A stretch of DNA of 64,000 nt, taken from NCBI RefSeq assembly GCF_000384395.1, contig NZ_ARWE01000001.1:1762894-1826893 (forward strand). The letters run 5' to 3'. Below are positions 10,239 through 18,766 of this stretch, one piece after another. The position numbers and the translations under genes are program-made. Numbering within the stretch: the stretch's first letter is position 1; each line of letters begins with the position of its first letter. This DNA is from Geopsychrobacter electrodiphilus DSM 16401 (GTDB taxonomy: Bacteria > Desulfobacterota > Desulfuromonadia > Desulfuromonadales > Geopsychrobacteraceae). Below the pieces are notes generated by a model, which saw only the letters and a list, made by a program, of their open reading frames with translations, made no database searches and was not told the DNA's origin.

Positions 10239-10711
10239 AATACGTCTGCCTGTGTCTGGTGCTCTTACTGACATTAATGAGTTCGTCAGGCCTGGCCTGT
10301 TTTGGCCCCAAACTGTTTATTGGCGTGGCTGCCGGTCAGGAAGGAGAGATGCGTTTTTACCTGGTCTCTATTTACCTGCATGAAAAAACCGGGATAGACA
10401 GTACGCTGATTGAATTAAAATCGGGACAAACTGGGGCTGAGGCCCTTGCCGCGAAGGAGATCGATCTTGGGTTCTCGAGCCAACCCGGGGTGCAGGCGAC
10501 GCCGGTTTTACATCTGGGCGGACAGCTGTACCTTTACAGTGGCGAGCGCCCTCTGAACGATCTTCAGTTCTCGACCGTAGGTCGGACTTTGGTCAAATTG
10601 CAACAGCGTCTCGATACCGGCGGCCTCGAATCTATACGCCAGAAGATTCAGACCGGAACCCTGCCGGCTGTCGCGGTACGGGATTTTCTGTTAAAAAATG
10701 GCTGGATTTAA
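10220..10711 (+). CDS. small secreted protein, possibly solute-binding-like
   Basis: A 163-residue protein with an N-terminal signal sequence ending around SSSGLACF. After it come KLFIGVAAGQEGE and a stretch GAEALAAKEIDLGF, which resembles the first lobe of periplasmic binding proteins of the OpuAC/PhnD type, but it is too short to be a complete two-lobed protein. I start at ATG 10220, overlapping the membrane ferredoxin gene by 19 bases. No ABC permease is nearby. Function is unknown; the binding-protein resemblance is tentative. Confidence 0.6.
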   Translation: MAFSALKYVCLCLVLLLTLMSSSGLACFGPKLFIGVAAGQEGEMRFYLVSIYLHEKTGIDSTLIELKSGQTGAEALAAKEIDLGFSSQPGVQATPVLHLGGQLYLYSGERPLNDLQFSTVGRTLVKLQQRLDTGGLESIRQKIQTGTLPAVAVRDFLLKNGWI

Positions 10712-11537
10712 GCGGAGGCTGCTGGTGCGCAACTCCCTCATTAGCGTTGTGGCTCTGTTGGTCTTGTGGGGCTGCACAACACCGCAGATCTCACGAATCC
10801 CGCAGCTGCAGGTCGGTACCGACCAACATCCGTTCGAAATTAGCGGAGTCTTGTCCGCAGACTTGCGTCTCAGTGGGGTTATCCGGCTGACCGGGGACTT
10901 ATTGATACCAGCCGGCCGTTCACTCTGGATCGCTCCAGGAAGTTCTGTGCTGGTGGTCGGCAATGACAGCAGCAAGATTGACCCTGAGTTCCTCGACAAA
11001 GGAACCGAAATTCTCGTCAAGGGGAGTCTGATTGTCGCAGGGGAGGGGTCGGCTCCAGTGCGCTTCGCCCTCGATCCTGCGACTCCTGCTGGTGAAAATT
11101 GGAGTGGTATCGAGCTGATTGGGGCGCAAACTACCCAGTTTAGCCATGTTGATATCTTTGCCGCAGAAACCGGTATTCTCAGTATCGACAGCTCGCCGCG
11201 CCTTGAACAGGTGAATATTCTTGGCGCGCGTAACGGACTGCTGCTCCAGGGTGGAGGCGTGATGGATTTTCATGGCGGACGTATCAGCGGTGGTGATGCC
11301 GGTCTCCTTTGTTTCGACAGGGCATCTCTGGCGTTAAACCAGGTCCAGATCGTCGATAACCTTGAAGAGGGCATGTATCTGGCCCCGGGCTGTTCGGTCA
11401 AGGCGCAGGATGTTGCAGTTGAGCGGAATGATCTGGGCCTGGTCGCGCTGGCCTCAACCCGTGCGCAGCTCACGTTGAGTCTGCACTCTAATCGTATCGA
11501 TTTTAAACCCCTCCCTGTCGGGGTCATCAGCAAATGA
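10698..11537 (+). CDS. parallel beta-helix lipoprotein
   Basis: A 279-residue protein with a lipobox LLVLWGCTT. The body has the short repeating strands of a right-handed parallel beta-helix (SLIVAGEGSAPVRFAL, ILSIDSSPRLEQVNILGARNG, MDFHGGRISGGDAGLL). It overlaps the gene before by 14 bases and the gene after by 4 bases. The next gene encodes a second beta-helix, so the two probably act as a pair. Related folds include NosD, which helps assemble a periplasmic copper site, but no metal ligands specific to NosD are recognisable. Confidence 0.7.
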   Translation: MAGFKRRLLVRNSLISVVALLVLWGCTTPQISRIPQLQVGTDQHPFEISGVLSADLRLSGVIRLTGDLLIPAGRSLWIAPGSSVLVVGNDSSKIDPEFLDKGTEILVKGSLIVAGEGSAPVRFALDPATPAGENWSGIELIGAQTTQFSHVDIFAAETGILSIDSSPRLEQVNILGARNGLLLQGGGVMDFHGGRISGGDAGLLCFDRASLALNQVQIVDNLEEGMYLAPGCSVKAQDVAVERNDLGLVALASTRAQLTLSLHSNRIDFKPLPVGVISK

Positions 11538-12604
11538 AGATATTTCTGCTTCTTGTATTGCTGGCCCTTCCATCACTGGCCACTGCGCTGGAATACCATG
11601 GAGAAAACACCCTTTATGTGGATACCCAGTGGCAGGGGGAGGTGCTGATTGACGGAATCCTGACGGTTGCCACGGGAGCGACACTCGAGATCCGTCCCGG
11701 AACCCATGTGCGCTTTGTGCGCAGGGACACCAACGGAGATGGTATCGGCGAGAGTGAACTCTTTGCTCAGGGTCGATTTATAGCGCGGGGCACAGCCGCG
11801 GAACCGGTGGTTTTTACCTCAGCCGAGTCGAATCCCGCCCCCGGTGACTGGGGGGCCCTGAATATGATGATGAATGAAGAAGGCGAGAATCTTCTCGAGC
11901 ACTGTCTTGTCGAATACGCTTATCGGGGATTTCACGCCCATTTTTCAAATGCGCATTTGCGGGCTTCGACCTTTCGGCACAATCAGCGGGGCGCTCAGTT
12001 TCAGGAGTCGACCGTCACTATTGAAGACTGCACTTTCCGCGATAATTTTAACGGTCTGCAATTTCGTGACTCGAAGGTTTCACTTAAAAACAGCAGTGTC
12101 GTCTCCAACCATTGGGGTGTCCGCGCTGTTTTTGTCACCCTTTTGATGTCGCATTGCCAGATCGAAGGGAATCTGACCAATGGCGTCAGTCTGCGCGATA
12201 GCAGTTTGACCCTGAGCAATAATCAGATCACAAATAATCGCCGCGGGATCTACCTTCAGCGCAGTAGCGGAACTCTGCGGGGTAACCGGATCGAAGATAA
12301 TCGCGAACATGGCATCTATCTTGAAGATTCAATCGCTGATGTCCAGTTTAACTTGATCAGCGGGAATGGCAGGTCAGGATTGAAAGTTCTCGATTCAGGC
12401 GGCAGCGTCGAGAATAACCGAATCGAAAACAATGGTGAGTTTGCGTTCTTTAACGCCGGCACTGACGACTTTTCTGTCGGCGCCAACTGGTATGGACTCC
12501 GCAACGCAACGCCTTCTCTGGTCGACGGACTCAGCCGGCCTGGAGCTGGGCGCCTTCTGCTGGCACCGTCACTCAGTCAACAACCCGAGGCTGGAACCTT
12601 TTGA
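11534..12604 (+). CDS. secreted right-handed parallel beta-helix protein (NosD-like fold)
   Basis: A 356-residue protein with a cleavable signal peptide (LLVLLALPSLATA) and no lipobox. A segment rich in VLIDGILTVATGATLEIRPG is typical of the cap of NosD/pectate-lyase-like proteins. Then come about ten beta-helix coils with the recurring pattern N-x-I-x-x-N-x-x-G-I/V-x-L (NNQITNNRRGIYLQ, GNRIEDNREHGIYLE). It starts in a 4-base ATGA overlap with the lipoprotein upstream. The fold suggests a scaffold for a periplasmic metalloprotein or polysaccharide binding; the substrate is not deducible. Confidence 0.78.
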   Translation: MKIFLLLVLLALPSLATALEYHGENTLYVDTQWQGEVLIDGILTVATGATLEIRPGTHVRFVRRDTNGDGIGESELFAQGRFIARGTAAEPVVFTSAESNPAPGDWGALNMMMNEEGENLLEHCLVEYAYRGFHAHFSNAHLRASTFRHNQRGAQFQESTVTIEDCTFRDNFNGLQFRDSKVSLKNSSVVSNHWGVRAVFVTLLMSHCQIEGNLTNGVSLRDSSLTLSNNQITNNRRGIYLQRSSGTLRGNRIEDNREHGIYLEDSIADVQFNLISGNGRSGLKVLDSGGSVENNRIENNGEFAFFNAGTDDFSVGANWYGLRNATPSLVDGLSRPGAGRLLLAPSLSQQPEAGTF

Positions 12605-13509
12605 AATCTTTAATTCAACTACTGCACCTGTTGACTCTCCTTGTGCCCCTGTTTCTGTTGATGGGCTGTCAGCCCGAAGGCACCCGTCAGAAGATGCGCA
12701 TCGGCTATATGAACTGCAACAGTGAAAAAGAGACCCTGCAACGATTTCGCCCGTTGACGCGTTATCTGTCACAGAAACTTGGTATCGACTTTGAGGCTGT
12801 TCCTGTCGACACTCAGGATTTTCCCCAGCGGTTTGCCGCTGGAGAGTTCGAATTTACCCATACCAACTCCTTGCTCTATTTAATCCTGCACAAGGAGAGT
12901 GGGTTGAAACTCCTGGCCACCGAAAAGCGGGGACGTTACGGCAGTTCGACCTCCGGGTCCATTATTTCGCGTAAAGGGAGTGGCATCAAAACCCTCGAAG
13001 ATATTAAGGGTAAACGCATGGTGTTTGGACCCCAGCTGGCTCCCAGCGGGTTTCTCGCCCAGTACGATATTATGCTGCGCAACCATATCGATCCAGAAAC
13101 CGATCTGGCCTACTATGCGATCCCTGCCGGTGCATTCAAGCACGAGAAGGTGATCTACGGTGTCTATTTTGGCCAGTTCGATGTGGGGGCCGCACCGTCC
13201 CTCGATCTTGAACTGATGATCGCCGACGGCAAGATAGCGGCCAGCGATTTTAATATCATCGCCGAGAGCCCGATTATCCCTTATTGCACCTTCGGCGCCC
13301 GGAAGGACCTTGATCCTGCGCTGGTTGAAAAATTTCGTCAGACACTCGTCAGTTTGAGCACCGACGAAACCGTGAACTATGAGGGTGAAAAACTCAAAGT
13401 TCTTGCCTCTGCGTGGGTCAGTGGCTATGAAACCCTTCAAGACTCTGATTACGACCAGCTGCGGGCGATGGCCAAGCGTGCCAACATGCCCCCTTATCAG
13501 GAGTTTTGA
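12601..13509 (+). CDS. PhnD-like phosphonate/phosphite-type binding lipoprotein
   Basis: A 302-residue lipoprotein (lipobox LLMGCQP) with the periplasmic-binding fold of the PhnD/PtxB group: RIGYMNCNSEKETLQRFRPLTRYLSQKLG, then FAAGEFEFTHTNSLLYL and IKGKRMVFGPQLAPSGFLAQY, where PhnD proteins have the SGYL-type ligand loop. Starts at TTG 12601 in a TTGA overlap. No ABC ATPase or permease gene is adjacent, so it may act as a sensor or delivery protein rather than an importer component. Its ligand could be an oxyanion, which is an inference from the family. Confidence 0.75.
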   Translation: MKSLIQLLHLLTLLVPLFLLMGCQPEGTRQKMRIGYMNCNSEKETLQRFRPLTRYLSQKLGIDFEAVPVDTQDFPQRFAAGEFEFTHTNSLLYLILHKESGLKLLATEKRGRYGSSTSGSIISRKGSGIKTLEDIKGKRMVFGPQLAPSGFLAQYDIMLRNHIDPETDLAYYAIPAGAFKHEKVIYGVYFGQFDVGAAPSLDLELMIADGKIAASDFNIIAESPIIPYCTFGARKDLDPALVEKFRQTLVSLSTDETVNYEGEKLKVLASAWVSGYETLQDSDYDQLRAMAKRANMPPYQEF

Positions 13510-14048
13510 TGGCAGGCCGTGACCGCTTCGATATCCTGACCTCTTCCTGTCTGCTGATTTGTGTTCTGGCCCTCGGTTTTCTTCTGGCTAACGGGCAACG
13601 CCAGAATTCTTCAGCAGCAGCTCTGGATAAAGCGCTTTCACGGCAGGTGGCTTACCAGGCGCGGGTCGATTTTCTGCGTAAGCTTTATCAACCGGTTGAA
13701 GACCTTCGTGCGGCGGGGCAGGTTTCATCGGCACTGCTTAAACTTGATGAACTGGCTCGAGCCTATCCACAGGAAGCCCACGGTGAAATTTTGTACGCCG
13801 AAATTTTGCTTGAGCGCGGGGCGACCAAGGAAGCCATTGACCACTATGTGCGTGCGGTCCGCCTGAATGGCGACTATGTCGACAAAGGCAGTCCTTTAAA
13901 CAGGCGTCAGGCTATTCAGCGACTGGTTGATGCTCAGCTGCCGGTGTTTACTGAAAAGGCCCGCCAGAATCCACAAGGTCTTGGGCTACAGCATACCCTG
14001 ACCGGACTTTATTATCTGCAGAGTCGGCTTGCTGGAGGCTGTGAGTAA
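13509..14048 (+). CDS. TPR-containing membrane-anchored protein
   Basis: A 179-residue protein with one N-terminal membrane helix (SCLLICVLALGFLLANG) and then paired helices of tetratricopeptide type (ALLKLDELARAYPQEAHGEILYAEILLERGATKEAIDHYVRAVRLNG). No catalytic motif. ATG 13509 overlaps the stop of the PhnD-like gene by one base. Likely an adaptor in a periplasmic complex formed by products of this operon, by context only. Confidence 0.65.
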   Translation: MAGRDRFDILTSSCLLICVLALGFLLANGQRQNSSAAALDKALSRQVAYQARVDFLRKLYQPVEDLRAAGQVSSALLKLDELARAYPQEAHGEILYAEILLERGATKEAIDHYVRAVRLNGDYVDKGSPLNRRQAIQRLVDAQLPVFTEKARQNPQGLGLQHTLTGLYYLQSRLAGGCE

Positions 14049-14050
14049 TT

Positions 14051-15115
14051 TTGAACCTGCTTGAGCGTCAGAATCTGATCGTTATTGTCTCCGGACTGAG
14101 CCTGGGAATCCTTGGCGTATTGCTGGTGGTCTGGGGAAACCCCCAGAATTCCGGGATTTGTGTCTCCTGCTTTCTGGAAAATTCGGCCGGGGCACTCGGG
14201 CTGCACGATAACCCGCGCATGCAATACCTGCGGCCGGAATTGATCGGTTTTGTGCTTGGAGCGGTTGCCGCCGCTTTTCTCGGCCGCGAATTTAAATCAC
14301 GCGGCGGGAGCGCTCCCTTGCCACGCCTGGTGGCCGGAATTTTTCTGATCGTCGGCTGTGCCGTTTTTATCGGTTGTCCCATCAAGATGTTTCTTCGCTT
14401 TGTGGCCGGGGATTTAACCACCTTAAGCGGTATCGCCGGTCTGATCGCTGGCGTCTGGCTCGGGCTTAAGGGCTTGGCCGCGGGTGTCCATTTCGGCGGG
14501 AGCAAACAACAGCCGGGAGGTGCCGGAATCTGGGTCCCCCTTGTCTTTGTCCTCCTGCTTGCCTATGTTCTCTGGCCGCCCGGGTTCCTGTTGCATTCGA
14601 CCCGGGGGAGTGCTGCGCAGTCAGCCCCGGTCCTGGTCGCACTGGCTGTCGGCCTGTTTTTGGGTGCTCTGGCCCAACGGAGCAGGTTCTGTGTGACTGG
14701 TTCGATTCGCGATAGTCTGTTGATGGGATATCGAACGCCACTGCTGCTGGGTTTGGTGGCTTTCCTGCTTAGCGGTTTTATTGCCAGTGTTGCTACCGGC
14801 CAATTTCATCCCGGATTTTATGGCCAACCGGGCGCGCACCTGGATATGCTCTGGAGCTTTCTGGGGATGTTACTGGTCGGTCTGATTTCGGCTCTGCTCG
14901 GTGGTTGTCCCTTTCGACAATTAATCAAGTCGGGAGAGGGGGATGCCGATGCAGGTCTGGTCGTGATCGGGATGTTCATCGGCGGCGGGCTGGTGCAATC
15001 CTGGCAGATTGCCGCCACGACCGCCGGAGTCAGTCTTTACGGCAAGGTGGCGGTGATGGTGGGTCTTATTTTTGTACTGATTAATATGCTTCTTTATCGC
15101 GAGCGTGTCGTCTGA
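14051..15115 (+). CDS. yedE: YedE-family putative selenium/sulfur-compound transporter
   Basis: A 354-residue polytopic inner-membrane protein with about ten helices. It has the duplicated sulphur-transport signature with conserved cysteines: GICVSCFLEN, GCPIKMFLRFVAGDL, RSRFCVTGSIRD and LGGCPFRQLI. This pattern is that of YedE/YeeE (DUF395), and the long form here matches the YedE subgroup proposed by comparative genomics to take up selenium. It starts at TTG 14051, 2 bases after the TPR gene, and is directly followed by the PqqD/radical SAM genes. Whether it moves selenium, thiosulfate or another sulfur species is not settled by the sequence. Confidence 0.82.
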   Translation: MNLLERQNLIVIVSGLSLGILGVLLVVWGNPQNSGICVSCFLENSAGALGLHDNPRMQYLRPELIGFVLGAVAAAFLGREFKSRGGSAPLPRLVAGIFLIVGCAVFIGCPIKMFLRFVAGDLTTLSGIAGLIAGVWLGLKGLAAGVHFGGSKQQPGGAGIWVPLVFVLLLAYVLWPPGFLLHSTRGSAAQSAPVLVALAVGLFLGALAQRSRFCVTGSIRDSLLMGYRTPLLLGLVAFLLSGFIASVATGQFHPGFYGQPGAHLDMLWSFLGMLLVGLISALLGGCPFRQLIKSGEGDADAGLVVIGMFIGGGLVQSWQIAATTAGVSLYGKVAVMVGLIFVLINMLLYRERVV

Positions 15116-15147
15116 CGTTGGCAGCAACCGTTGAAAGGATCCAATTT

Positions 15148-15462
15148 GTGAGCAGATTACAGCGAAACCCGGAGATTGTCTGGCGGGTTGAAAAGCGCCG
15201 GCAGCAGGCGGTCATTGAGCGACTTGGTGCCGGGGAAGAGATCGATAATGAAGGTACAGTTATTCTGTTGATCTCCGGGATGATGCACCAGCTGAACCTC
15301 CTCGGCGGGATGATCTGGTCCCTTTGTGACGGCACGCGTGGTGTCGACCAGATTGTTGCTGAATTATTGAAAGAGTTTGATGTTGATACGAAAACTTTGA
15401 AAATCGATGTCGATGAGTTTGTTGCTGATCTCCTTGAAAGGGGCTGGCTCAGTTATGACTAA
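15148..15462 (+). CDS. PqqD-family peptide chaperone (GeoRSP type)
   Basis: A PqqD-like protein of about 104 residues. PqqD domains bind a precursor peptide and present it to a radical SAM/SPASM maturase. The signature is the stretch NEGTVILLISGMMHQLNLLGGMIWSLCDGTRGVDQIVAELLKEFDVD, which is the usual 'N-x-x-G-x-x-I-W-x-L-x-D-G' PqqD pattern. I prefer GTG 15148, which has AAAGGAT upstream, to TTG 15118, which has no ribosome site. It overlaps the radical SAM gene by 8 bases, indicating translational coupling. Confidence 0.87.
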   Translation: MSRLQRNPEIVWRVEKRRQQAVIERLGAGEEIDNEGTVILLISGMMHQLNLLGGMIWSLCDGTRGVDQIVAELLKEFDVDTKTLKIDVDEFVADLLERGWLSYD

Positions 15463-16459
15463 TCCACTCACGGAACAATTTTCAGCACCGCTGACCTTTA
15501 ACTGGACACTCTCTTACCGCTGTAATTTTACCTGCAGACACTGCTACAGTCGGGAAGAGGAGTGTGATGAGCTCAGCATCGCGGAGCTGAAGCAGATCGT
15601 CGATCGTCTCGCCCAGCATCAGGTCCCCTTTATCAACTTCGGTGGTGGCGAACCCTTGATGCGTCCGGATATTTTCGAAATCAGTGAATATGCTCGCAAA
15701 CAAGGGCTGAATGTTTCCATGAACAGCAACGGCTGGCTGCTTGATCAGCCCGCCGCTGAAAAGATTAAAGCCGCCGGCTTTCGCAGTGTCGGGATCAGCA
15801 TCGACAGTGCAGACGCCGCTCTGCATGACGACTTCCGCAATCAACCCGGGTCATTTGTCAAAGCTGTGAATGCACTCGATGCTCTCGCCCAGGCAGGTGT
15901 GCGGAGTACCATGAGTTCGGTGATTTCAAAGATCAATCATTTGAAGTTCCGCGATCTGTTAGACCTGGCGCGACAGCATAAGGTGACGCAAGTTTATCTG
16001 CATAATTTCAAATGCAGCGGCCGAGGATTCAAAAATCGGGAAGATCTTGATCTTAGTCCTCTGGAGTGGAAAGCATTTTATCTCGAAGCACTGAGGGTCA
16101 AGGATGAGACCAAGGATCTGCTGATCTCCTTTGATGACCCGGTGATTGCGTCCCTGCCAGGATATGCTGAAAATTCCTTGGTTAAAGGGAGCAGCTGCGG
16201 GAAGCTTTCGTTGAACCTGCGTCCCAATGGCGATATCACCCCCTGTGGCTTTATCCCATTAGTGGTAGGCAATATTCTGCGCGATGATTTCGAGGAGATA
16301 TGGTACAATTCGCCCATTCTCAACAAGATGCGCAACAAGGAAGCCAAGGGGAAATGTCAGGGTTGCGGTGCCTATGAAGACTGTCTCGGGGGCTGTACAG
16401 CGCGCGCCTTCGCGACCACGGGAGACCTGAGTGAACCAGATCCTCATTGCTGGAAATAG
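15455..16459 (+). CDS. radical SAM/SPASM peptide maturase (GeoRSP type)
   Basis: A 334-residue radical SAM enzyme. The SAM cluster motif is CNFTCRHC near residue 24 and the SAM-binding GGGEPL follows. The C-terminal SPASM domain has CGKLSLNLRPNGDITPC, then CQGCGAYEDCLGGC (CX2CX5CX3C) and a last cysteine in DPHCWK, enough for two auxiliary 4Fe-4S clusters. Enzymes of this build, next to a PqqD gene and a SPASM-only gene, form the GeoRSP system named from Geobacter genomes. Its probable substrate is the 18-residue peptide encoded 67 bases downstream. The ATG at 15455 overlaps the PqqD gene. Confidence 0.9.
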   Translation: MTNPLTEQFSAPLTFNWTLSYRCNFTCRHCYSREEECDELSIAELKQIVDRLAQHQVPFINFGGGEPLMRPDIFEISEYARKQGLNVSMNSNGWLLDQPAAEKIKAAGFRSVGISIDSADAALHDDFRNQPGSFVKAVNALDALAQAGVRSTMSSVISKINHLKFRDLLDLARQHKVTQVYLHNFKCSGRGFKNREDLDLSPLEWKAFYLEALRVKDETKDLLISFDDPVIASLPGYAENSLVKGSSCGKLSLNLRPNGDITPCGFIPLVVGNILRDDFEEIWYNSPILNKMRNKEAKGKCQGCGAYEDCLGGCTARAFATTGDLSEPDPHCWK

Positions 16460-16474
16460 AAGCGTTTAGACAGT

Positions 16475-16498
16475 TCAGTTGAAAATATTTTCAACTGA
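16475..16498. promoter_or_regulatory. 24-base perfect palindrome before the peptide gene
   Basis: Twelve bases (TCAGTTGAAAAT) are followed at once by their exact reverse complement, giving a 24-base dyad with no spacer. It begins 16 bases after the radical SAM stop and ends 28 bases before the peptide start. It is AT-rich and lacks a T tail, so it is not a standard terminator. It could be a repressor operator or an RNA hairpin that protects or processes the peptide message. Confidence 0.7.
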
Positions 16499-16526
16499 TA
16501 AACCCAAAACCATGTGGGAGGTTGCC

Positions 16527-16583
16527 ATGAAGAAGTACATGAAGCCCCGTATTGTTGGTTCATCCAACGTCCATCCTTGCTGA
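16527..16583 (+). CDS. 18-residue candidate RiPP precursor peptide
   Basis: A tiny gene between the radical SAM enzyme and its SPASM partner: MKKYMKPRIVGSSNVHPC, then TGA. A near-ideal ribosome site GGGAGG (16516-16521) stands five bases before the ATG. The peptide is basic at the N terminus and ends in His-Pro-Cys, a likely modification site. It is followed directly by a strong hairpin with a T run, as expected for a peptide made in excess of its enzymes. An alternative in-frame ATG at 16512 would add MWEVA. If the TGA were read as selenocysteine the frame would continue to TAG at 16641-16643 (38 residues, with Cys-Sec-Trp-Trp), but this lacks proof. Precursor status is inferred from position and ribosome site. 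Confidence 0.72.
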   Translation: MKKYMKPRIVGSSNVHPC

Positions 16584-16593
16584 TGGTGGGGAA

Positions 16594-16623
16594 GGGGAGC
16601 AGCTTGCTGCTCCCCTTTTTTTT
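16594..16623 (+). terminator. strong intra-operon hairpin with T8 tail
   Basis: GGGGAGCAG (16594-16602), loop CTTG, CTGCTCCCC (16607-16615), then eight T. A-T pairs extend the stem by two. This is a classic intrinsic terminator 10 bases after the peptide stop codon. Because the downstream genes follow with their own strong ribosome site, it probably acts as an attenuator, giving high peptide and low SPASM/desulfurase transcript. Its closeness to the TGA also invites comparison with a SECIS element, though the loop lacks the usual early G. Confidence 0.85.
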
Positions 16624-16649
16624 ACAACTTTTGCAGGAGGTAGGGTTGT

Positions 16650-17591
16650 ATGTCCCTGGATCTGCTTGATGCGCCCTTGAGAATCACCTGGGACCTCTGT
16701 CCTGTGGATCAGAAACCGCTCTCGGGCCGGGACGCATTGCAGGTTGCAGATCGGCTGCTGGAAGCTGGGATTTTTTACCTGCTGTTGGATGAGCGCCCGC
16801 TGCTTCATCCCGATCTGCCGGAGATTCTGCGCCGGATGACAGCCGAAGGTTGTCAGGTCAGCCTTGTGCTCGGGGATTCCGCCGCCGAATGGGAAGCGCT
16901 TCTCGCCCTGAAAGGCAACTTCACCCTCTTTGTCGATGCCGGCTGCTGGCTGTCCAGAGAGAATGGCCTGTCGCGGCTGGAAGAGGTCTTTGCATGTTTG
17001 GCTGCCAAAGGACTGAAAGCTGCTCTTTTATGGGTCCCCGAAGCGGGCCATCTGCCTTTTCTTTACCCGCTGTTTGAGCTCTGCGCGCGCCACCAGATAA
17101 CCCGTTTTAAGTTGCCAAACCACAAGATCGGTGTTAATCCTGATCCCTCTAAAACGGCCAGAATTTTGCAGTCTGCTGATCTGTGCGTCCTGGAGCAGAT
17201 GCTGTTGGAGCACCCCCTGGCGACCGCAAATATCTCTCTTGAAGTTCATGACCTCTTTCTCTGGGAACTGCTGTTTCCGAATGGTGGCGGCGAGAGGAGC
17301 GAATATGGAGGCTGTCAAGCCGGGAACAGTCTTGGCCATGTCAGTGGAAACGGTGATCTCTGGCCCTGTTCTTCATGGCCACAAGCCTTAGGGAGTCTTC
17401 TGCAACAGGATTTGATGGTGCTCTGGGATTCTCCCCTGCGCTTTCAGGTGCGTGCCGAAGTCGACGCTGAACCCTCTGATTGTAAGGGGTGTCGCGATTA
17501 CACAATCTGTTTTGGCGGATGCCGCGGTTTGGCTCGCAGTTGCCGTAAAAACGGAGATCGTCGTGACCTGCTGTGTATCGGGCCGCGTTGA
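16650..17591 (+). CDS. SPASM-domain protein lacking the radical SAM cluster (GeoRSP partner)
   Basis: A 313-residue protein built like a radical SAM/SPASM enzyme (LRITWDLCPVDQKPLSGRDALQVADRLLEAG) but without the CX3CX2C motif: only one cysteine is left where three should be, so it cannot cleave SAM. The SPASM part is intact, with CQAG...GDLWPC and CKGCRDYTICFGGC plus further cysteines. It is probably a partner subunit of the active enzyme at 15455-16459. AGGAGG stands ten bases before ATG 16650. A degenerate radical SAM homologue beside an active one is the expected GeoRSP arrangement. Confidence 0.85.
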   Translation: MSLDLLDAPLRITWDLCPVDQKPLSGRDALQVADRLLEAGIFYLLLDERPLLHPDLPEILRRMTAEGCQVSLVLGDSAAEWEALLALKGNFTLFVDAGCWLSRENGLSRLEEVFACLAAKGLKAALLWVPEAGHLPFLYPLFELCARHQITRFKLPNHKIGVNPDPSKTARILQSADLCVLEQMLLEHPLATANISLEVHDLFLWELLFPNGGGERSEYGGCQAGNSLGHVSGNGDLWPCSSWPQALGSLLQQDLMVLWDSPLRFQVRAEVDAEPSDCKGCRDYTICFGGCRGLARSCRKNGDRRDLLCIGPR

Positions 17592-17593
17592 AA

Positions 17594-18766
17594 ATGAGTT
17601 ATTCTGAAGACATGTCAGCCCCTATTTATCTGGATAACGCGGCAACCAGCCATCCCAAACCCGAGAGCGTCTATCAAGCGACCTTCGACGCGCTCCGCGG
17701 TGGGGGGAATGCTGGTCGTGGCGCACATAGGGCCAGCTTGAGCGCGGATCGTTTGATCTTCTCCGCCCGCGAAGCTCTGGCTGCCTTCTTTGGCATCGCT
17801 GATTCAAGCCGTCTGATCTTTACCCCGAATGCCACGACTGCGATTAATACCGCGCTGTTTGGTCTGTTGAAACCGGGTGAGCGGGTCGTTACCAGCTGCA
17901 TGGAACATAATGCGGTGAGTCGCCCTCTGCGGCGCCTTGCTGATCTGGGGGTTGAGGTTGTCAAGGTCGGGGCCGACCAATCCGGACGGGTCGATCAACA
18001 GCGCCTGCGTCACGCCTGTCTCGAGTCGCCGACCCGCATGCTGGTCCTCAATCATTGTTCGAATGTTAATGGTCAATTGCAGGATATTGAGGGCCTTGGA
18101 GGTTTTTGCCGTGAAAGAAATATTCTGTTTCTGCTTGATGGCTCACAGAGTGCCGGTTCTTTCCCCCTTGATATTGAAGCGGAAAAAATAGATTTATATG
18201 CGGCTCCGGGACATAAAAATTTATTAGGCCCGGCAGGGACGGGTCTGCTTTATGTGCGTCCCGGTTTGCAGGTTGAACCCTTGACTTACGGCGGCACCGG
18301 GGCTAACAGCCATTCTGACCAGCAGCCTGAAATGATGCCGGAACGGTTTGAGAGCGGTACCCAGAATATGGTGGGGATTGCCGGATGGCTGGCGGCGGTT
18401 GAATATCTGCAAAAACAGAATCCCGCCGAATTAAGAATCGGGCTCGAACGCCATTTACGGCAGATTATTTGCGGCTTGCAGGAGATCGAGGGCGTGCGGG
18501 TTTATGCAGCCGACTCCCTTGCCCATCAGGGCGATGCTGTTTCCTTTACGGTTGAGCATATCGATCCCGCTCAAATCGGTTTTCGTCTGGATCAGGATTT
18601 TGGTATCTGCGTGCGCGTTGGTTTGCATTGCGCGCCTGAGGCCCATCGCACATTGGGAACCTACCCTCAAGGGACAGTTCGAGTGAGCCCGGGCATTTTT
18701 ACAACGGATGATGAGATTCAAAAACTGCTTTCTGCCGTTCAAATAATTTGTCTGAACAAGGGTTGA
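17594..18766 (+). CDS. cysteine desulfurase/selenocysteine lyase-like PLP enzyme
   Basis: A 390-residue class V aminotransferase-fold enzyme. IYLDNAATSHPKP opens the domain, the PLP lysine is in APGHKNLLGPAGTG, and the catalytic cysteine is in RVGLHCAPEAHRTLGT. This 'HCAP' form belongs to the desulfurase subfamily that has been linked by comparative genomics to selenium-dependent hydroxylases, distinct from IscS. It starts 2 bases after the SPASM gene; ATG 17612 is an alternative. With YedE upstream it supports a sulfur- or selenium-handling role for the operon, though substrate specificity cannot be read from sequence. Confidence 0.82.
   Translation: MSYSEDMSAPIYLDNAATSHPKPESVYQATFDALRGGGNAGRGAHRASLSADRLIFSAREALAAFFGIADSSRLIFTPNATTAINTALFGLLKPGERVVTSCMEHNAVSRPLRRLADLGVEVVKVGADQSGRVDQQRLRHACLESPTRMLVLNHCSNVNGQLQDIEGLGGFCRERNILFLLDGSQSAGSFPLDIEAEKIDLYAAPGHKNLLGPAGTGLLYVRPGLQVEPLTYGGTGANSHSDQQPEMMPERFESGTQNMVGIAGWLAAVEYLQKQNPAELRIGLERHLRQIICGLQEIEGVRVYAADSLAHQGDAVSFTVEHIDPAQIGFRLDQDFGICVRVGLHCAPEAHRTLGTYPQGTVRVSPGIFTTDDEIQKLLSAVQIICLNKG

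Follow-up and report, generated by a model that had tools for sequence, protein, structure and literature searches.

The radical SAM/SPASM (rSAM/SPASM) cassette named GeoRSP contains, in Geopsychrobacter electrodiphilus DSM 16401, an 18-residue peptide gene (MKKYMKPRIVGSSNVHPC) whose product is, from its sequence conservation and its distribution, very probably the GeoRSP substrate. The short gene is real, and the comparisons argue with good confidence for a dispersed RiPP family with a YxxP leader, whose members would be matured by one GeoRSP enzyme set.

The peptide gene and the GeoRSP cassette

An initial annotation had placed an 18-residue gene between the maturase and its SPASM partner, with GGGAGG five bases upstream and a terminator-like hairpin downstream, and had named a PqqD protein, an rSAM/SPASM enzyme and a SPASM protein as neighbours. 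The frame and both signals were located in the window (the whole stretch of 64,000 nucleotides that was analysed), and the neighbours were confirmed by family profiles and a check for the CxxxCxxC motif (Table 1). Two alternative in-frame starts lie upstream of the peptide ATG, an ATG at 16512 (23 aa) and a TTG at 16479 (34 aa); no GGAGG-like site was seen before either on inspection by eye, and the frames of relatives start at the ATG of MKK. The arms of the hairpin are 100% complementary, and the hairpin was also present in the RNA fold; it was absent from the output of a consensus terminator scan, which listed 10 other sites (5.2 expected). The palindrome upstream of the peptide gene is a putative operator or weak hairpin. 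No NCBIfam model matched the 34-aa ORF containing the peptide, no Pfam model matched this ORF or two relatives, and a solved-structure search with the peptide of a relative gave no match.

Table 1. Features of the GeoRSP region in the window. Locus counts are from tblastn at E <= 1e-6 over 63 named loci.
Feature	Position	Strand	Evidence and remarks
Second beta-helix-like protein	10698..11537	+	putative assignment; in 43/63 loci
Parallel beta-helix repeat protein	11534..12604	+	TIGR03804; in 48/63 loci
PhnD-like binding protein	12601..13509	+	PF12974; in 50/63 loci
TPR-containing protein	13506..14048	+	TPR_16, below its cut-off; in 49/63 loci
YedE family putative selenium transporter	14051..15115	+	TIGR04112, 397 bits (cut-off 200); in 54/63 loci
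PqqD-like RiPP recognition protein	15118..15462	+	TIGR04302, 95.2 bits (cut-off 100); PF05402
GeoRSP radical SAM/SPASM enzyme	15455..16459	+	TIGR04303, 456.2 bits (cut-off 400); CxxxCxxC present
Perfect 12+12-bp palindrome	16475..16498	.	TCAGTTGAAAAT/ATTTTCAACTGA; in the gap from the rSAM stop to the ribosome site of the peptide
Ribosome-binding site GGGAGG	16516..16521	+	5-nt spacer to peptide ATG
18-aa peptide gene	16527..16583	+	ATG start, TGA stop
Perfect hairpin, 12-bp arms, terminator-like	16592..16617, T-run to 16623	+	between peptide and SPASM gene
GeoRSP SPASM partner	16650..17591	+	rSAM/SPASM fold, without CxxxCxxC
PLP-dependent cysteine desulfurase family protein	17594..18766	+	TIGR01977; in 31/63 loci; start taken as ATG 17594 (listed ORF starts at GTG 17573)

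The three families that make up GeoRSP in NCBIfam (TIGR04302, TIGR04303 and TIGR04304) lie side by side here, with only the rSAM enzyme passing its cut-off and the PqqD-like and SPASM proteins falling below theirs. Next-best models for the rSAM/SPASM enzyme were heme b synthase AhbD (204 bits), MftC (TIGR03962, 199 bits) and NirJ (195 bits), and CxxxCxxC was kept in 17/17 rSAM/SPASM proteins. The PqqD-like protein had TIGR04302 as its best match (E 2.7e-27), yet under the cut-off, and its nearest solved structure was TbiB1 (5v1u, E 5.4e-5). For the SPASM partner, TIGR04304 was the best match at 82.1 bits against a cut-off of 300 (E 3.6e-23). CxxxCxxC was absent from 29/29 SPASM partners, in which seven C-terminal cysteines were invariant, and for most of its length the structural model (mean pLDDT 91.7) matched SuiB, PqqE, anSME and SkfB (TM by query 0.59-0.69, rmsd 4.6-7.2). 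As modelled, the SPASM partner is a pseudo-enzyme that has the rSAM/SPASM fold and lacks the catalytic cysteine triad. Its gene was found in 54/63 named loci, one of these (L208) being a cross-match inside the rSAM gene.

The genes from 10698 to 15115 (beta-helix, PhnD-like, TPR and YedE) accompany GeoRSP and are rearranged yet present in Geobacter-type genomes. YedE is reportedly mentioned in a selenoproteome review. A ResB-like (cytochrome c biogenesis) protein was observed within the GeoRSP neighbourhood of Geobacter sp. AOG1 (L218:6364-7287). A dedicated protease or exporter was not identified.

Conservation and distribution of the peptide

Thirty order-level loci were fetched (L001 and L009-L037); in 24 of them, the window's own included, the peptide lay between the rSAM gene and the gene of its SPASM partner. 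The cassette copy was absent from the other six (L015, L016, L017, L024, L033 and L035), in all of which the peptide was found elsewhere in the same genome. A check proposed with the initial annotation, for a conserved short frame with synonymous drift in relatives, gave pS of 0.74 and pN of 0.12 (pN/pS 0.16) over 97 distinct 54-nt peptide genes drawn from 104 copies of 18 or more codons. The frame was kept while synonymous sites drifted, so neither the lack of a short frame in relatives nor its free breakage was observed. By this substitution pattern, the peptide is under protein-level selection. A ribosome-site-like (SD-like) tetramer preceded 108/109 copies, and a terminator-like hairpin with a T-run stood 3' of 102/108 copies against an expectation of 4.6 for simple shuffles. 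This frequency suggests a transcript that usually terminates behind the peptide.

Across these 97 genes, Y4, K6, P7, S12, H16, P17 and C18 were invariant, in part by construction because the search pattern demanded Y/[KRQN]P/HPC; G11, S12, V15 and V/I9 were not demanded. The most variable residue was at position 5 (M, L, Q, S, I and V among others). With few exceptions the copies followed the pattern [YF]-x-x-P-[KR]-[VI]-[VIA]-G-x-x-x-[VI]-H-P-C. The Tyr at position 4 is replaced by Phe in L286, L288 and L290 and by Asn in one copy of L073. In remoter forms, such as MKKIRFAAPKVVGSSTVHPC, the constant part shrinks to [YF]xxP[KR][VI] plus [VI]HPC. The C-terminal His-Pro-Cys, described at first as invariant-looking, proved to be kept as far as Nitrospirae and Deferrisomatales bins, a constancy partly imposed by the search. 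The motif was present in 41/64 loci of named genomes, including a Nitrospirae bin (L203), where the count is that of the listing minus two nonsense matches and contig ends truncate several of the loci. The total of 109 copies is an undercount, as intact variants in L123, L129 and L134 fall outside the pattern and L073 holds the extra Asn4 copy. Decayed copies, with parts changed or lost, were observed in L142, L146 and L147 and left out of the counts, as if some genomes were losing extra peptide copies. Larger proteins with the peptide fused to their C-terminus were also looked for, and this reading was rejected; the long frames that end in VHPC seem to be fortuitous open stretches 5' of the peptide's own ATG.

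The stop codons bear on a different reading, in which selenocysteine is inserted at the UGA that follows Cys18, with the hairpin as a SECIS element, to give a longer Cys-Sec selenopeptide. The genome probably uses selenium, as it has a selD match (L265) with an in-frame TGA that is consistent with a selenoprotein SelD; the putative selenium transporter YedE adjoins the cassette, and the hairpin does lie downstream of the peptide UGA. However, directly after the same Cys codon 59 of the 109 copies end in TGA, 43 in TAA and 7 in TAG, and the frame past the stop was not conserved in cassette copies compared by eye; the conserved in-frame UGA with coding sequence beyond it that marks a selenoprotein was thus not found. 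Read-through was rejected on the mixed stop codons, and its probability is taken to be negligible.

When genomes of the order were searched at the protein level with the peptide, 60/136 gave a total of 147 matches (E <= 10), with 1-6 per matching genome. Three genomes with marginal matches only (G004, G038 and G113, E 0.05-0.97) were dropped, and 57 remained. The TIGR04303 rSAM was present in 51/136 genomes at E <= 1e-70, the window's own included, and the peptide was found in 51/51 rSAM-positive vs 6/85 rSAM-negative genomes; the genomes surveyed are mostly draft bins. The six rSAM-negative carriers (G017, G020, G046, G070, G081 and G128) were 70-91% complete. The rSAM gene is split in G046 and cut by a contig end in G017, in each case beside the peptide, and G128 and G020 gave only weak rSAM matches (149 and 112 bits, cut-off 400).

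In a sample of 395 genomes of the phylum, searched for the peptide with a blended query, the rSAM was present in 27, the peptide in 29 and both in 26, so that the peptide was found in 26/27 rSAM-positive vs 3/368 rSAM-negative genomes. The rSAM occurred without a peptide match in G327, and the peptide without the rSAM in G350, G396 and G508, at a laxer threshold as well. Five peptide-bearing genomes gave no GeoRSP rSAM at E 1e-30, namely G396 (96% complete), G508 (98%), and G350, G070 and G081 (70-81%). A peptide match was obtained in 16/17 named genomes reached from the loci. Environmental isolates that carry the system include Geothermobacter hydrogeniphilus (L189) and Geomobilimonas luticola (L210). 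By these searches the peptide occurs with the GeoRSP rSAM and rarely without it. A conserved small ORF tied to a maturase, as looked for in a RiPP precursor, was thus found, and frame conservation together with the co-occurrence supports the original suggestion that the peptide is the likely substrate.

Dispersed copies and their neighbours

The peptide gene lies in the cassette as first described and is not private to it, since unlinked copies are found elsewhere, often 3' of genes for multihaem or probably exported proteins. The genome of the window has three copies, one in the cassette and two unlinked at C1:552591 and C1:855208. Without modification, their peptides have monoisotopic masses of 2074.064 for the cassette copy and 2032.042 and 2016.040 for the unlinked ones. 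The copy at C1:855208 lies 29 nt 3' of a 1436-aa ORF with 23 CxxCH motifs; that at C1:552591 lies between two TPR-protein genes on the opposite strand, one of the two having been scanned. By script, 85/109 copies were classed as unlinked, of which one (L038) is truly a cassette copy next to a split rSAM gene; it was excluded from the genome tally and is counted as non-haem among the 69 same-strand neighbours below. Unlinked copies were chosen from the 147 matches, most but not all of which were fetched, and the proportion of 24 cassette to 85 unlinked copies is not a natural ratio because copies were fetched by choice.

An upstream ORF was present in the fetched stretch for 80/85 unlinked copies, in the same orientation as the copy for 69 and in the opposite orientation for 11; the remaining 5 had none. 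At least 3 CxxCH motifs were found in 41/69 same-strand upstream ORFs and at least 10 in 36/69, compared with 4/313 and 3/313 control ORFs, respectively, taken from 400 kb of DNA of only five of the genomes; Fisher P was about 1e-31 and 1e-27 with related loci treated as independent. The other same-strand ORFs comprised 4 with 1-2 CxxCH, 14 in one BLAST cluster, of which the single scanned member is an FG-GAP/UnbV_ASPIC propeller protein, and 10 others. Neighbours were called with a simple ORF script, and a cytochrome truncated by the end of a contig or stretch may be counted among these others. The 41 multihaem-linked copies came from 32/45 genomes and 11/12 families, with a median gap of 58 nt (range 14-299). 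Among the nearest downstream ORFs, only 3/82 had at least 3 CxxCH; the copies thus lie preferentially 3' of the cytochrome gene.

In Geobacter-type genomes, 8/19 copies stood behind a same-strand ORF with at least 3 CxxCH, counts that are cut because these stretches reach only about 1.5 kb upstream. All eight of these multihaem ORFs end in W-N-x-K-[ST]-x-W (L236, L239, L240, L241, L249, L251, L252 and L259). In remoter lineages, the upstream proteins were non-haem and adhesin-like or propeller-like. Three of them, of 944-1234 aa and encoded 5' of the peptide (L280:4149-7373, L281:4131-7832 and L273:1179-4010), had Big_1, Invasin_D3 and C-terminal Biotin_lipoyl matches, and a fourth was propeller-like. 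The partner is therefore not strictly a cytochrome. Judged by CxxCH content, multihaem cytochromes appear to be the main upstream class near the lineage of the window, and the shared rule would be that the peptide gene comes last, after the gene of a large protein that is probably exported.

The placement of the copies, together with their synonymous drift, decides against two readings in which no precursor is made. If the ORF were a regulatory attenuator, consisting of a leader peptide and a terminator, the hairpins and T-runs behind nearly all copies would be accounted for, as would the position of that in the cassette ahead of the SPASM gene. The unlinked copies, however, have no constant same-strand downstream gene (the commonest downstream clusters comprise 10-11 of the neighbours), the amino-acid sequence is conserved rather than the DNA, and the peptide tracks the rSAM; this reading was rejected as very improbable. 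If the ORF were carried by chance on a mobile or REP-like dispersed repeat, the presence of 1-6 copies per matching genome, most with a terminal hairpin, would be accounted for. Against this reading stand the excess of synonymous over nonsynonymous change, the variation of the hairpin sequences between cassette copies, among which the comparison was made, and the preference of the copies for the 3' side of multihaem and propeller genes, and it too was rejected, with next to no probability left to it.

Proposed maturation and role

The initial annotation saw little room for a separate leader in 18 residues; a minimal YxxPx[V/I] leader motif is nevertheless recognisable at residues 4-9. As given in PMC13381572 and PMC12710340, YxxP, in full [Y/W]xxPx[L/V/I/F/A], is the leader motif of lasso-type/PqqD-like recognition proteins. 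Y4-x-x-P7-x-[V/I]9 of the peptide fits YxxPx[LVIFA] and is probably its minimal leader, given the motif match and the TbiB1-like PqqD protein, with exceptions at position 4 in L073, L286, L288 and L290. The peptide would then divide into the leader MKKYMKPRIVG and the core SSNVHPC, with VHPC at the C-terminus. Lasso-type systems, with YxxP leaders and B1/RRE proteins, share with GeoRSP this leader motif and a protein like TbiB1, itself a lasso recognition protein. They differ in that an rSAM here takes the place of the lasso cyclase; no asparagine-synthetase-like lasso cyclase was present among the neighbours scanned (nine in one scan and eight in another).

The PQQ (PqqA/PqqD/PqqE) and mycofactocin (MftA/MftB/MftC) systems likewise combine a PqqD-like protein, an rSAM/SPASM enzyme and a very short conserved precursor. 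Their precursor cores are Glu-Tyr or Val-Tyr, whereas GeoRSP has a VHPC core, several dispersed copies, an extra rSAM-like pseudo-enzyme and exported-protein neighbours. In SbtA/SbtM, an rSAM/SPASM maturase acts on Cys or Sec of a small peptide to form a thio(seleno)oxazole. The pairing of such a maturase with a small peptide is common to both systems and the GeoRSP maturase matches the SbtM profile weakly (84 bits), but the GeoRSP peptide has no Sec, and no SbtM above the TIGR04082 cut-off was found in the genome of the window (best 102.7 vs 350 bits). That this RiPP system works like PqqD/rSAM systems is well supported, with the NCBIfam cut-off passed by the rSAM only.

In the proposed mechanism, the peptide gene would encode the precursor of a very small RiPP. 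The PqqD-like protein would bind the YxxPx[V/I] leader within the first 11 residues, and the rSAM/SPASM enzyme would modify the C-terminal core, most likely at or near Cys18, a site proposed by analogy with PqqE and MftC, which act on residues within their short substrates. The SPASM pseudo-enzyme would partner the rSAM enzyme as a scaffold or electron-relay subunit. Sulfur or selenium may come from the neighbouring YedE transporter and, in one clade, from the desulfurase. The exact chemistry can be proposed with low confidence. One maturase set would serve several near-identical dispersed precursors, many of them encoded last, after the gene for a large protein that is probably exported and is in most cases a multihaem cytochrome c. 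Their position behind surface-protein genes suggests that the product is synthesised together with cell-surface proteins and probably works alongside them. A role in extracellular electron transfer is most plausible in Desulfuromonadales- and Geobacter-type genomes, and the chances that the product acts together with cytochromes are put at about even.

Two other accounts of the product were considered. In one, the peptide, once modified by GeoRSP, would serve as the scaffold of a small diffusible cofactor of the PQQ or mycofactocin kind, and the cytochrome link would reflect shared regulation only. The next-best models of the maturase (AhbD, MftC and NirJ) fit this account, as does the nearly identical core across copies, which a single product would have. 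Cofactor RiPP systems (PQQ, mycofactocin) have a single precursor, however, unlike the several copies behind surface-protein genes found here, and no releasing protease or dehydrogenase was present among the nine window neighbours scanned; this account is considered rather less likely than not. In the other, which is considered somewhat less probable still, the GeoRSP-modified VHPC peptide would be incorporated stoichiometrically into extracellular assemblies of multihaem cytochromes, with a haem- or metal-ligating, capping or cross-linking function, which would explain why copies stand behind so many cytochrome genes.

The GeoRSP enzyme set has been named, and a search of the open-licence literature with that name and the family accessions found no paper on the system and no published substrate, most subscription papers lying outside that literature, and GeoRSP is not mentioned in the available portion of PMC4289311. 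The peptide provides an exact candidate substrate with a testable leader and core, and adds a genomic role. To our knowledge, the layout, in which one maturase is accompanied by 1-6 near-identical precursors, many of them behind surface-protein genes, is unusual for a RiPP, and it suggests a hitherto unstudied peptide product associated with the bacterial surface. Extracellular electron transfer has been studied mainly at the level of cytochromes; if the product acts with multihaem cytochromes, a modified-peptide component would be added to this process, and if it is a stoichiometric part of their assemblies, a RiPP would be a structural or redox component of bacterial electron-transfer machinery.
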